Positions 1,500 to 64,000 of a stretch of 64,000 nucleotides of DNA are shown piece by piece. The position numbers and the translations under genes are program-made. The DNA is from Psychrobacter lutiphocae DSM 21542 (GTDB lineage: Bacteria; Pseudomonadota; Gammaproteobacteria; Pseudomonadales; Moraxellaceae). The notes under the pieces are model-generated. The model was not told the DNA's origin. It ran no database searches and was given only the letters and a program-made list of their open reading frames with translations. The stretch is from positions 1 to 64,000 of the forward strand of contig NZ_KB907627.1 in the NCBI RefSeq assembly GCF_000382145.1, given 5' to 3'. Position 1 is the first letter of the stretch, and each line of letters begins with the position of its first letter.

Positions 1500-3629
1500 T
1501 TACTCGTCATCATCATCTTTGCCTGAGAATTTTTTCATAATCTCTTCAGCTACAGACTTAGGTGTTTCCGCATACTTTTGGAATTCCATTGAGTATGTTG
1601 CACGACCTTGCGACTGTGAGCGCAGGTTAGTTGCATAGCCAAACATCTCAGCTAAAGGAACTTCAGCACGGATTTGCTTAGTACCACCAGGCAAGTCATC
1701 CATACCTTGAACCATACCACGGCGACGGTTTAAGTCACCCATGATATCACCCATGTACTCTTCAGGTGTTTCAACTTCAACTTTCATAACTGGCTCAAGA
1801 AGCACTGGGTTGGCATTCATGAAACCTTTTTTGAAGGCAATTGAACCCGCCATTTTAAACGATAACTCATCCGAGTCAACATCGTGGTAAGAACCATCAT
1901 ATAAGGTAGCTTTAACACCTACAATTGGGTAACCAGCAAGGATACCGTTCTGCATGCGCTCTTGAATACCTTTATCTACTGCGCTGTGATATTCTTTTGG
2001 TACCACACCACCTACGATTTCTTCAGCAAATTCGTATTCTGGACCTTCATCAAGATCTAGTGGCTCTAGGCGCAACCAAACGTGACCAAATTTACCACGA
2101 CCACCCGTTTGACGTACGAACTTACCTTCTTGCTCAACTGTACCACGAATAGTTTCACGATAAGCAACCTGTGGTGCACCGATGTTGGCTTCTACTTTAA
2201 ATTCACGCTTCATACGATCTACTAGAATTTCTAAGTGAAGCTCACCCATACCACTGATGATTGTCTGACCAGACTCTTCATCTGTGTGTACACGGAACGA
2301 TGGATCTTCTTTTGCTAGACGGCCAAGGGCAACTGACATTTTTTCTTGGTCAGCTTTGGTCTTAGGCTCAACAGCTAGAGAGATAACTGGATCTGGGAAT
2401 TCCATGCGCTCAAGGGTAATGATTTCTTTTTCATCACATAGCGTATCACCAGTACCCACATCTTTCATACCCACTAGGGCAGCGATGTCACCAGCACGAA
2501 TCTCTTCAAGCTCTTGTTGTGATTCAGCGTGCATCTGTACGATACGACCGATACGCTCACGCTTCATCTTAACAGGATTATATACGCTTTCACCTTGCTT
2601 GATAACACCAGAATAAACACGTACGAAGGTTAAGTTACCAACGAATTTGTCGTTCATGATTTTGAACGCTAGTGCTGAGAATGGTGCGTCATCAGATGCT
2701 TCACGCGTACCTTCAGTCTCATCCTTGTCATTAAGAATACCTTTAATAGCAGGGACGTCTTGTGGTGCAGGCATATATCGAATTACACCATCCAACATGA
2801 TCTGTACACCTTTGTTTTTAAAGGCTGTACCACAGTACATTGGGATGATTTCGTTCGCAATTGTACGCTGACGAATGGCCGCATGAATCTCGTCTTCAGT
2901 TAGCTCTTCGCCTTCTAAGTACTTGTTCATTAGCTCTTCGTTGGCTTCTGCAGCTACTTCGACTAGCTCACTACGATACTCTTCCGCTTTATCTTGTAAT
3001 TCAGCTGGAATTTCACGCTCTTCAAACTTCATACCTAACGATTCAACATCCCAATAAATAGCTTTCATGCTGATAAGATCTACAACGCCTTCGAAGTCGT
3101 CTTCCTTACCAATTGGAATAACCATCGCAACTGGATTACCGCCCAAGCGCTCTTTGACTTGCTCTTTCACACGGTAAAAGTCTGCACCCACACGGTCCAT
3201 TTTGTTAACAAATGCTAAGCGTGGAACTTTATATTTATTAGCTTGACGCCATACAGTCTCAGACTGAGGCTGTACACCACCAACCGCACAATAAACCATA
3301 CATGCACCATCTAGTACACGCATAGAACGCTCTACTTCAATGGTGAAGTCAACGTGACCTGGGGTATCAATAATATTGATGCGATGCTCTGGAAATTGAT
3401 GAGCCATACCAGACCAGAAACAAGTCGTTGCAGCTGAGGTAATTGTAATACCACGCTCTTGCTCTTGTTCCATCCAGTCCATGGTAGCGCCACCATCGTG
3501 AGTCTCACCAATTTTATGGTTAACACCGGTGTAGAATAGGATACGTTCGGTCGTGGTTGTTTTACCAGCATCAATGTGTGCTGAAATACCAATATTACGA
3601 TATCGGTTTAGGGGGGTTGCACGTGCCAT
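1500..3629 (-). CDS. fusA: Elongation factor G
   Basis: Ribosomal translocase GTPase acting in the cytoplasm during elongation and ribosome recycling. The 709-residue length is normal for bacterial EF-G. GTP-binding motifs are visible: AHIDAGKT at residues 17-24, DTPGH at 88-92 and NKMD at 142-145. Domains II to V follow, ending in an acidic DDDDE tail. The start is the only sensible one ([20 protein letters not shown]). It follows rpsG after an unusually long 593-nt gap and precedes tuf, the classic str operon order. Confidence 0.98.
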
Positions 3630-4222
3630 AATTTTTTCCTAATGGAATGTCTTTTTAATTTATTTCGTTTTACAAGTTAGTGATAGGCATCAAGCTAAAG
3701 TAGCTTGTATGGACGACTTAATATCATGCAATTGATTATCATGCCAACTTTTTTATTTGCTTACAGCTTACTATAATTACTAGTGATAGTGATTTACAAT
3801 ATCTCTGTATATTCGTAACCCGTATGCTCTATAAAACATTAGCATATTGCGTTCATTTGATGAGTCATCGGTTTATTAGTCAAATTTTGACTGCTTATCT
3901 GACTTTTATATACCCTAACGTACTTAACATTTAGCGTACTTAATATATAGGAGACTTATTACATATTAATCACTTTATATTAATACATTAAGACAGGCAT
4001 TCAAAGCTAACAATACTTATCAAAAACTTAACGCTTATTACTTATCTTTTGTCACTTGCTTATCTTGTATAACTTGCTTGTCGTAGGAGACCATTACTAA
4101 CCGTGGTTGTTAATGGTCCTAGATTAAGACTATATTATTGTACTACTTTTTGCTTATTTATTAAATTAAGCTTGTATTTAAGTTAGCTTATAAGCGCACT
4201 AGGTCAGCTTAAAATAATAAAC
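3630..4222. other. Long rpsG-fusA intergenic region
   Basis: This 593-nt spacer within the str operon is much longer than the few dozen bases usual in enteric bacteria. No open reading frame in it resembles a gene. The only clear structure is the inverted repeat at 4085-4120. The length suggests that fusA has its own promoter or that a processing or regulatory site lies here; this is inference. Confidence 0.5.
4085..4120. repeat. Inverted repeat in rpsG-fusA gap
   Basis: The arms at 4085-4102 and 4105-4120 pair over most of their length (12 of 14 core positions) around a 2-nt loop. No T-run follows on the minus strand, so it is not a normal terminator. It could be an RNA processing or regulatory hairpin about 100 nt downstream of the rpsG stop. 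Confidence 0.45.
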
Positions 4223-61954: not shown

Positions 61955-63178
61955 ATGAGCGATAAAGATCTGGCTAATGTACAAGCGGCGTTTAAGCTAC
62001 CCTTTGCTGAGCAAATAGCGTTTTACCAGCAAAAGCTGCGGTTGCCAACACAGAGCTATAAAGACTTACAAGCACACCAGCATGACAAAGCGTTTGTGGT
62101 CGCTGGCGCAATGAAGGCGGACCTTCTAAAAGACTTGCAAGATGCTGTGGCGAAAGCAATAGAAGATGGTGAAAGCTTAGGTCAATTTAAATCACGCTTT
62201 GATGAGATTGTAGCCAAGCGGGGCTGGCTAACTGATACTGATAAAGAATACAAGGCGTGGCGTGCTCGTATTGTCTATCTGACCAATCTGCGTAGCAGTC
62301 ATGCGGCTGGACGCTGGCAACAGATGCGTACCCCTGAGATGATGGCGGCACGCCCATACTGGCAGTATCGGCATACGACGCTTGATAATCCAAGGCTCAA
62401 TCATAAACGGCTTAATGGTAAGGTACTGCCTGCTGATGATGGCTGGTGGTCAATCAACTATCCTCCCAACGGCTATGGCTGTAACTGCTATGTGCGGGCG
62501 TTAAGTAGAAAAGATGTAGAGCGTTTAGGGCTTAGCGTTGCAAAAACACCAGATTATGATGGTGCAGATGATAGCTTTGCGCATGCACCAGGATCGAGCT
62601 GGTATCCTGATCTTGATAAATATAGCTATGCAATCGCTAAGGCGATGGTTGCTGATGGTATGGCAAACGGGGTGTTTGAGCGTTGGATAGCAAGAATGAA
62701 TGACCAGCGTGATGAACTGGTACAAAGTGATGGCTATAAAGGTCTATCAAGTTTGGATAAAAACCGACTGATAAGACAGGCTGACACGGGTGAAAAATAT
62801 GCAGTGGCAGTGATAAATCCAAGCCAAAAGCAAATACTGGATGTTAAAACACAAACTATCTGGCTAAGTGAATATGATGCTCTTAAACAGGCGCAAAGCC
62901 GTGCAGGTAATCATGGGTTTGATGCATCGAGTTATCACAAAGTACAACGAGTTATTGATAATGCGACGCTTATTGTACGTCAGATACATAAGCCTACGGG
63001 TGATCTGTCAAAACGCACATTATGGGTTGAAGGGTTTATTGATGGTAAGACGTCTCGATATAGTGCAGTGCTGCATCAGACGGCGGATGGCAAAGAGGTG
63101 TATTTGAAGTCTTATAGGTTAGATAGCACTAAAGACAAATCAATCAAGAAACGTGGTGAAGTGCTATTTGAGAAATAG
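61955..63178 (+). CDS. MuF-type head morphogenesis protein with C-terminal PBECR-like domain
   Basis: 407 residues. The N-terminal MuF/SPP1 gp7 domain (about 50-205) shows RARIVYLTNLRSSHAAGRWQ, then PYWQYRHTTLDNPRLNHKRL, DDGWWSINYPPNGYGCNCY and a short ALSRKDVERLG. The C-terminal ~120 residues (TIWLSEYDALKQ, then HKVQRVIDNATLIVRQIHKP and DGKTSRYSAVLHQTADGKEV) look like a PBECR2-type barnase/EndoU-like nuclease domain, a known variable module at the end of MuF proteins. MuF acts in capsid assembly and may enter the cell with DNA. The PBECR call is inference. Confidence 0.8.
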   Translation: MSDKDLANVQAAFKLPFAEQIAFYQQKLRLPTQSYKDLQAHQHDKAFVVAGAMKADLLKDLQDAVAKAIEDGESLGQFKSRFDEIVAKRGWLTDTDKEYKAWRARIVYLTNLRSSHAAGRWQQMRTPEMMAARPYWQYRHTTLDNPRLNHKRLNGKVLPADDGWWSINYPPNGYGCNCYVRALSRKDVERLGLSVAKTPDYDGADDSFAHAPGSSWYPDLDKYSYAIAKAMVADGMANGVFERWIARMNDQRDELVQSDGYKGLSSLDKNRLIRQADTGEKYAVAVINPSQKQILDVKTQTIWLSEYDALKQAQSRAGNHGFDASSYHKVQRVIDNATLIVRQIHKPTGDLSKRTLWVEGFIDGKTSRYSAVLHQTADGKEVYLKSYRLDSTKDKSIKKRGEVLFEK

Positions 63179-63190
63179 CAGACAAAATGA

Positions 63191-63292
63191 AGCACCTAGC
63201 AGAACGCTCCCAGAGTTCTCATGCCAATCACCGAAATCTGTAAAATAGATTGGTGGCGGGAGGGAGGCTCACCGCAGTTGGGGCTAGGTGCC
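63191..63292 (+). ncRNA. Structured RNA candidate between MuF and gpG genes
   Basis: A perfect closing stem GCACCTAGC (63192-63200) with GCTAGGTGC (63283-63291) encloses a hairpin AGAAC/GTTCT (63201-63205 and 63215-63219) and a second hairpin with CACC/GGTG (63229-63232 with 63252-63255) capped by AATCT/AGATT (63235-63239 with 63247-63251). The loop CTCCC (63207-63211) could pair with GGGAG at 63258-63262, a pseudoknot. No open reading frame of note. It lies within an operon, so it could be cis-acting or a processed RNA. Confidence 0.55.
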
Positions 63293-63316
63293 TATTTATA
63301 TTAATACATAACATGA

Positions 63317-63841
63317 GTGGGTGCAATGATAAGCGTACAACTTGAAGGCGTTGAGCAAGTAGAAAAGCAGCTGCTACGAGTGCAACAGCGTGTGGGTGAT
63401 ATGCGTCCACTTATGGCGGATATCGGTGAGCATCTAGTCAATAGCACTCATGATAACTTTGAAAGCTCTACTGCACCAGATGGCTCAAAATGGGAGGCTA
63501 ATAGCCCAGTCACTTTTGCTCGTATGCTAGGCAAGTCTGATACGGGTAAATCAGGACGCATTAACAAGCGTGGTGTGAATAAAGTGGCGAATAAGCGACC
63601 GCTGATAATGAGTCATACATTAATGCAATCAATCCATTATCAGGAAACTAGCACTAATGTGACAGTCGGTACTAATATGGTGTATGGCGCAATGATGCAC
63701 TATGGTGGTAGTAAGGCTAAGTTCCCTCATCTGTGGGGTGATATACCAGCACGTCCGTATTTGGGTATTGGCCGTGATGATGGGTCGGTGATTAAAGATA
63801 TGATTGGAGATTATTTGCTTGATGCTTTAAATAATAGATAA
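63317..63841 (+). CDS. Phage virion morphogenesis protein (Mu gpG-like)
   Basis: Tail-completion/virion morphogenesis protein of the Mu gpG family. The frame opens with ATG-less GTG near 63317 (174 residues); ATG 63326 (MISVQLEGVEQVEKQLLRVQ) gives 171 and fits the family start better. Blocks include STHDNFESSTAPDGSKWEAN, NKRPLIMSHTLMQSIHYQ and VYGAMMHYGGSKAKFPHLWG, then IPARPYLGIGRDD. It follows the structured-RNA candidate. Confidence 0.85.
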   Translation: MGAMISVQLEGVEQVEKQLLRVQQRVGDMRPLMADIGEHLVNSTHDNFESSTAPDGSKWEANSPVTFARMLGKSDTGKSGRINKRGVNKVANKRPLIMSHTLMQSIHYQETSTNVTVGTNMVYGAMMHYGGSKAKFPHLWGDIPARPYLGIGRDDGSVIKDMIGDYLLDALNNR

Positions 63842-63850
63842 CTAAGCCAT

Positions 63851-63925
63851 CCCCAGCCCTGAGAAGCGTTAAGAAAAGCTCTGGGGGAGCTTTTTAGCTT
63901 CGCAAGAGCCAAGCTGTGCTTGGCT
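63851..63925 (+). promoter_or_regulatory. Competing hairpins after gpG-like gene
   Basis: AAAAGCTC (63874-63881) pairs with GAGCTTTT (63887-63894), a terminator with T-run. CCCCAG (63851-63856) can instead pair with CTGGGG (63881-63886), which would disturb it. A third hairpin AGCCAAGC/GCTTGGCT (63907-63914 and 63918-63925) follows. It may be an attenuator or simply a terminator cluster. Confidence 0.5.
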
Positions 63926-63950
63926 AAAGAAAAGGAAGGGAATGAAAATA

Positions 63951-63981
63951 AAAACCGCTTAAATGCGATTTAAGCGGTTTT
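63951..63981. terminator. Perfect 14-bp terminator hairpin near window end
   Basis: AAAACCGCTTAAAT (63951-63964) pairs perfectly with ATTTAAGCGGTTTT (63968-63981) around GCG. It is symmetric and could serve converging transcripts. Confidence 0.85.
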
Positions 63982-64000
63982 GTTGTGTTTGTGGGGTTAG

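Follow-up and report, generated by a model that had tools for sequence, protein, structure and literature searches.

A structured RNA gene appears to lie between the MuF and gpG genes of a Mu-like late gene cluster (TerS, TerL, portal, MuF, gpG) in Psychrobacter lutiphocae DSM 21542, on the strand opposite to these genes. The element occupies positions 63191-63292 of a 64,000-nucleotide stretch (contig NZ_KB907627.1, positions 1 to 64,000), which we call the window. Comparison of the window with related loci gives good support to the conclusion that this RNA gene is antisense, structured and often tRNA-like, and that it moves with the MuF C-terminal domain.

A preliminary description of the window had reported a perfect 9-bp stem, nested hairpins and a CTCCC (63207-63211) complementary to a downstream GGGAG, all between the MuF and gpG genes. 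Each of these features was found as described. Read on the minus strand, the RNA would consist of a 9-10 bp closing stem followed by D-like, middle and T-like arms, with complementary CUCCC and GGGAG loops. The same description held that the pairing exceeded chance, and comparison of four homologous spacers bore this out. This window-like set comprised the window, Psychrobacter aquaticus CMS 56 (spacer 74% identical and in the same position), Moraxella caprae and a Moraxella metagenome-assembled genome. In a structure drawn on these same four sequences, 10 of the 18 pairs were changed on both sides and 84.7% of cells were paired. None of 500 shuffles reached either figure, and slid controls were only 28-47% paired. 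Three members have CUCCC/GGGAG as the loop pairing, and the Moraxella metagenome-assembled genome has CUAC/GUAG. The compact RNA with its possible loop-loop pseudoknot is conserved with compensatory changes. Single-sequence folding of the 102 nt gave −36.6 kcal/mol on the minus strand (z −2.40) and −42.4 kcal/mol on the plus strand (z −3.26), with 3 of 200 shuffles as good in each case. From the compensatory changes we conclude that the fold is a real, conserved RNA structure.

In more distant Psychrobacter Mu-like prophages, the minus strand of this spacer contains an RNA-like sequence whose T-arm has the canonical tRNA form. Members of this tRNA-like set also have a closing stem of 9-12 bp and share a conserved 25-mer, and most have a TATAAT box upstream; the 25-mer recurs in two viral contigs (L027 and L029) whose loci appeared G+C-rich by eye. 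Eight of 20 pairs in the set were changed on both sides and 97.9% of cells were paired, with none of 500 shuffles as good. The canonical 5-bp/7-nt T-arm was present at 11 loci, all of them in cluster 2 of the MuF C-termini (see below). Many loci share a common architecture, in which a closing stem, a D-like arm and a middle arm are followed by a last hairpin that abuts the 3′ closing strand. Complementarity between the D-like and T-like loops was higher within than between loci (8.32 versus 6.97, standard deviation 0.34, p 0.0002, n=31), a result that is indicative only, as the arms were picked by a script, five loci were dropped, six were added by hand and relatives are not independent. Longer kissing interactions, differing from those chosen by the script, were seen by eye in L055 and L063.

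The preliminary description had assigned the element to no class, and none was found for it in Rfam release 15: there was no match at the gathering threshold in the window or 20 relatives, and no sub-threshold match fell on the element. ARAGORN called no tRNA genes in the window or in seven loci. By blastn, the spacer had no match among phages and plasmids, and among 348 genomes of the family it matched only the window's own genome and one relative. A covariance model of the window-like set (R1) recovered only its four training sequences from 340 genomes. The model of the tRNA-like set gave four weak genome matches, two of which were tRNA-Thr and transfer-messenger RNA (tmRNA). A scan of genome contigs with the window MuF alone found no relative. 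Three matches at E 0.03 to 0.09 (L010-L012) looked like chance on inspection. A looser pattern was also set aside; its 17 stretches were four known ones and 13 chance-like ones without a T-arm. One genome (G055:C1) has a MuF match and the RNA motif at three places, which represent three similar prophages. By eye, the MuF-gpG spacer of L171 contains two similar tandem copies of a hairpin-like RNA motif, recalling repeat antitoxins. At G000:C48:13512-13564 three weak matches to part of the spacer are spaced 18 nt apart, perhaps as a tandem repeat.

Inspection of the window revealed a sigma70-type promoter (TTGCAC-N17-TAATAT) from which the RNA would run from 63292 to 63191. A panel built from the MuF alignment comprised 80 genome loci (the best 80 of 368 relatives) and 80 viral loci (80 of at least 586). 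The distance from MuF to the next open reading frame (ORF) was measurable in 153 of these 160 loci, and was below 20 nt in 58, 20-79 nt in 12 and at least 80 nt in 83. After removal of near-duplicates, which reduced 79 spacers to 68, a joint promoter and closing stem score was compared with 20 shuffles per locus; two of the 68 had no scorable site, and 66 could be classed by MuF cluster. On the minus strand 32 of 68 spacers, the window among them, scored above all of their 20 shuffles; on the plus strand one of 68 did. By design, the test requires 5-11 nt between the −10 box and the stem that follows it, which would put the start of the RNA at the stem or close to it. The promoter alone was found antisense in 33 of 57 spacers of clusters 0-3 and sense in one of 57 (the window is not in this count), and in none of six spacers of clusters 4-5 and of ART and unknown types. 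A scan for the stem without the promoter was unselective (11 of 76 spacers at p ≤ 0.05) and was abandoned. A strand test of the closing stems counted 25 G-U against 8 A-C (p 0.002). At many loci the RNA ends near the stop codon of MuF, so that 3′ trimming seems likelier than an intrinsic terminator. These data indicate that the element is probably a minus-strand RNA gene rather than part of the late mRNA, and that the preliminary description, which took the late operon transcript as its source, was probably wrong on the strand and on the role.

The presence of the spacer followed the form of the MuF C-terminus. MuF proteins were clustered by single linkage of their last 150 residues, and the Pfam names of clusters rest on representatives. 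Of the 97 loci in clusters 0-5, 85 had a distance of 20 nt or more between MuF and gpG, as against two of 32 loci with a short MuF (Fisher 2e-17). Similarly, MuF was long in 79 of 81 loci with the spacer and in 22 of 58 without it. A first hidden Markov model (HMM) of the C-terminus, which included a shared linker, was unselective (149 of 153 matched); an HMM of the domain only matched 40 of 82 loci with the spacer versus 8 of 57 without it. At E 0.01, Pfam assigned PBECR2 to 21, PBECR3 to 7 and MuF_C to 4 of 75 spacer MuFs (seven near-identical loci left out, the window added). The corresponding numbers for 58 MuFs without a spacer were 5, 1 and 0. Two representatives each of clusters 0 and 2 were scanned and had no PBECR match. 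The joint promoter and stem signal was present in 17 of 19 loci of cluster 0, to which the window belongs, in 10 of 14 of cluster 2 and in four of six of cluster 3, and in none of the five loci of clusters 4 and 5 or the three others. In a partial Mantel test on 57 loci, RNA similarity correlated with that of the C-terminus given the N-terminus (0.449, p 0.0005).

Two loci, L063 and L065, illustrate the joint exchange. Their sequences agree at 91% as far as base 3243, which lies within MuF, and do not match over 3244-3812 and 3244-3816, respectively. The match returns at 81% from 3813 and 3817, on the border of the −10 box (3813-3818 and 3817-3822). The replaced piece consists of the MuF C-terminus and the whole RNA (3713-3803 and 3728-3804). 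Normalised similarity of the two MuF proteins was 6 of 100 in the C-terminus and 97 in the N-terminus, and the RNAs are of different classes, one with the last loop ACGGCCGA and the other with a TTCGAAT T-arm. In each locus a further ORF separates the RNA promoter from gpG (L063:3865-4219 and L065:3877-4231).

Among named phages, PBECR2 (E 3e-24 or better) occurs in RcapMu of Rhodobacter capsulatus, RcWaterboi, RR1-B and EBPR siphovirus 4, whose spacers measure 92-103 nt (92 nt in RcapMu); RC1 has PBECR3 and a 66-nt spacer. In Mu, which has a weak MuF_C match, F and G overlap and there is no spacer. Pseudoalteromonas phage HS6 (L215:1259-1486) and Vibrio phage vB-Vv-ZX4290 (L216:1286-1483), with other C-termini, have an ORF of 65-75 amino acids after MuF, which is a possible protein immunity gene. 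A member of the tRNA-like set that has a TATAAT box was also found at an orphan locus of one genome (G096, L226:6769-6897). It is flanked by hrpA-like and cytochrome b561-like genes, named by reading their translations, and adjoins a 116-amino-acid protein that is 58% identical to one encoded beside MuF of L018 (G095). The locus lies outside any recognisable prophage and has no MuF among its ORFs of at least 100 amino acids. No MuF was found in the genome at 1e-20 with the window MuF as query or at 0.01 with the L020 MuF, the latter search having no positive control. The segment L226:6769-7586 is, as a single case, a possible immunity-gene island.

The window MuF matches Phage_Mu_F at residues 60-180 of 407 (7.6e-16), its only Pfam match, and has a C-terminal extension. 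AlphaFold models of the extension were confident (pLDDT, the predicted local distance difference test, 88 and 89 for the C-terminal domain). A MuF from P. aquaticus that is 71% identical matched PBECR3 at E 0.0059 and 17.0 bits, below the cut-off of 30. The most probable PDB match listed was 7vd7_A (0.77 and 0.75), the toxin of a Salmonella toxin-antitoxin complex, in a list that included unrelated folds. In BFVD, three matches fell below 0.001, one nameless and two (E 1.2e-4 and 4.0e-4) to phage proteins that bear the name Nuclease. These matches weakly suggest that the C-terminal domain is a nuclease of the PBECR3 kind.

We consider it fairly probable that the tRNA-shaped RNA is the antitoxin of the adjacent virion-borne MuF nuclease, of PBECR/MuF_C type. 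Sequence comparison shows the structure with its covariation, the antisense promoters, the association of the spacer with the MuF C-terminal domain, the exchange of both together and one orphan copy; expression of the RNA, nuclease activity of MuF (weakly supported in the window) and inhibition are inferred. The RNA would be transcribed from its own sigma70-type promoter opposite the late operon, and would fold like a tRNA, with an acceptor-like closing stem stacked on the T-like arm, the D-like loop paired with the T-like loop, and a variable middle arm. MuF of this family would be packaged and then injected along with the DNA, and may cut RNA in the cell. The RNA may be made and inhibit MuF, acting in trans as an immunity RNA against the C-terminal nuclease domain: a cell holding the phage or prophage would transcribe the RNA, which would bind the nuclease, perhaps as a tRNA-shaped mimic of its substrate, and the cell would escape. 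The chances seem about even that such tRNA-shaped immunity RNAs are widespread and evolve fast, each MuF nuclease domain forming a cassette with its antisense RNA antidote, and that bacteria keep orphan copies to serve as RNA immunity genes.

Several observations weigh against this reading or parts of it. The window MuF itself had no PBECR match in Pfam at E up to 1 and no match in PDB at E 0.001. Twelve of the 97 loci with a long C-terminus have a gap of less than 20 nt, and Pseudomonas phage H71 (L217) has PBECR2 (E 4e-22), yet only 1 nt separates its MuF from gpG. Cluster 1, classed as PBECR2 by two representatives, gave the closing-stem signal in only one of 19 loci; therefore its RNAs, if any, fold differently. 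Antisense promoters were found in 7 of 18 loci of that cluster, with, by eye, another fold and, in some spacers, a terminator-like hairpin. When the C-terminus was controlled for, RNA similarity still correlated with the MuF N-terminus (0.206, p 0.0005). As to the strand, the G-U test falls to 16 versus 8 (p 0.076) without the outliers L070 and L171, single-sequence folding slightly favours the plus strand in the window, and three outer pairs of P. aquaticus fail on the minus strand, two of them being G-U on the plus strand. Finally, the orphan is one RNA only, and the MuF search of its genome lacked a positive control.

Other explanations account for parts of these data. The promoter is directed at the MuF gene, and at many loci only a few nt separate the end of the RNA from the MuF stop, with no room for a terminator. 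Antisense transcription into the 3′ end of MuF could silence MuF or the late operon in the lysogen, as in type I-like control, with the fold only stabilising the RNA. Such control would fit an element found mainly where MuF has a toxin-like domain. A type I antisense antitoxin acts on the mRNA of its toxin; the RNA proposed here would be antisense to the spacer and convergent with MuF. However, the folds are kept by compensatory changes and have tRNA features, and a plain antisense RNA needs no tRNA shape. The orphan RNA, with no MuF in cis among the ORFs of that size, also speaks against type I-like control, and the terminator-like hairpins that end some cluster 1 spacers would stop such transcription; we regard this explanation as unlikely. 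An element of the late mRNA on the plus strand, such as a processing site, a translational coupling device or a packaged or riboswitch-like RNA, would fit the more stable plus-strand fold and the G-U pairs of P. aquaticus. It is very improbable, as the promoters lie on the minus strand and the canonical T-arms are read there; moreover, the spacer is missing from phages whose MuF is short, although these need the same genes, and F and G of Mu are gapless.

The tRNA shape, own promoter, rapid turnover and orphan copy would suit a decoy against host defences that cut tRNA, encoded by an accessory gene at this site and unconnected with MuF. Phage tRNAs that escape defences directed at tRNA are known (PMC10264068, PMC11555353), and a counter-defence RNA, which the RNA may be, was among the roles offered by the preliminary description. 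A decoy would leave unexplained the absence of the RNA beside short MuFs and the exchange of the RNA together with the C-terminal domain, and is quite improbable. A DNA element, for example a site for gyrase or a cruciform in Mu-like phages, is extremely improbable: the gyrase cut site of Mu is annotated nearby, between G and I, but this is after G and not between F and G, and promoters, canonical T-arms and RNA-type loop pairing would have no explanation. Among the roles listed in the preliminary description, a separate small RNA came closest; the link to the toxin-like MuF C-terminal domain was missed.

In type III toxin-antitoxin systems the RNA antitoxin consists of tandem repeats and is encoded with the toxin in one operon, on one strand. 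The proposed antitoxin resembles that of ToxIN and relatives in that a structured RNA would neutralise an endoribonuclease directly. It is unlike type III in having its own promoter, the strand opposite to the toxin and a tRNA-like shape, in being present as one copy in the window rather than as tandem repeats, and in that the toxin domain belongs to a phage head protein. The type III pair is described in a passage of PMC5449768 as 'endoribonuclease toxin and RNA antitoxin'. In passages of PMC5576092, small ORFs that follow MuF polymorphic toxins are proposed as immunity genes; the carrier (MuF with a C-terminal extension) and the place after the toxin gene are the same here, whereas the immunity factor would be an RNA gene on the opposite strand. 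The main text of that paper contains neither 'intergenic' nor 'antisense'. According to passages of PMC5512222, PBECR domains fused to MuF are predicted RNases that are probably injected, and Mu's own copy is predicted to be inactive. The MuF-fused predicted RNase is common to both accounts, and Mu lacks the spacer; those passages mention no linked RNA gene. Likewise, the passages on phage Fc02 in PMC9936078 name no RNA at this place. The RNA shares with tRNA and tmRNA the T-arm, the D-like arm and a closing stem in the acceptor position, and differs from them in the length of that stem (8-12 bp), in its long middle arm, in having no CCA that we could see and in not being called by ARAGORN. 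Our literature search, which lay largely outside subscription journals and preprints, found no paper describing the RNA.

MuF toxins are common in temperate phages, and immunity to them has been looked for among small proteins (PMC5576092). If the proposal is correct, gene callers would miss an antidote of this kind, an RNA on the opposite strand. Such an RNA would account for the survival of a phage that injects a nuclease to which it is itself exposed, and protection by each RNA should be confined to its cognate MuF domain. These RNAs would also form a family of tRNA-like molecules that is new and missing from Rfam release 15, as searched, and would be, to our knowledge, the first RNA-based immunity to a polymorphic toxin.

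Coordinates of the MuF-gpG region of the window and of the parts of the proposed RNA.
Feature	Position	Strand	Basis or remark
MuF gene (minor head protein, long C-terminal domain)	61955..63178	+	PHROG 220, Pfam Phage_Mu_F; convergent with RNA
MuF C-terminal domain, weakly predicted nuclease of PBECR3 kind	62762..63175	+	P. aquaticus relative (below cut-off); Foldseek BFVD
Proposed RNA gene, 102 nt, GGCACCTAGC ... GCTAGGTGCT	63191..63292	-	Fold, covariation, joint promoter and stem test, covariance model match (window belongs to the model's training set)
Closing stem, 3′ strand GCUAGGUGCU, adjoining T-like arm	63191..63200	-	Fold, covariation
T-like arm, loop GGGAG at 63207-63211	63201..63219	-	Fold, loop comparison, covariation
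Middle (anticodon-position) arm, differing between relatives	63229..63255	-	Fold, comparison of relatives
D-like arm; CUCCC (63262-63266) can pair with T-like loop	63256..63275	-	Fold, loop comparison, covariation
Closing (acceptor-like) stem, 5′ strand GGCACCUAGC	63283..63292	-	Fold, covariation
−10 element TAATAT, 5 nt upstream of RNA	63298..63303	-	Sequence; joint promoter and stem test
−35 element TTGCAC, 17-bp spacer, overlapping gpG start	63321..63326	-	Sequence; joint promoter and stem test
gpG-like gene (tail completion or Neck1)	63326..63841	+	PHROG 26; alternative in-frame GTG at 63317

Downstream of gpG, two terminator-like hairpins were seen by eye at 63842-63985 of the window, at the place that in Mu holds the gyrase site, a terminator and the late promoter.
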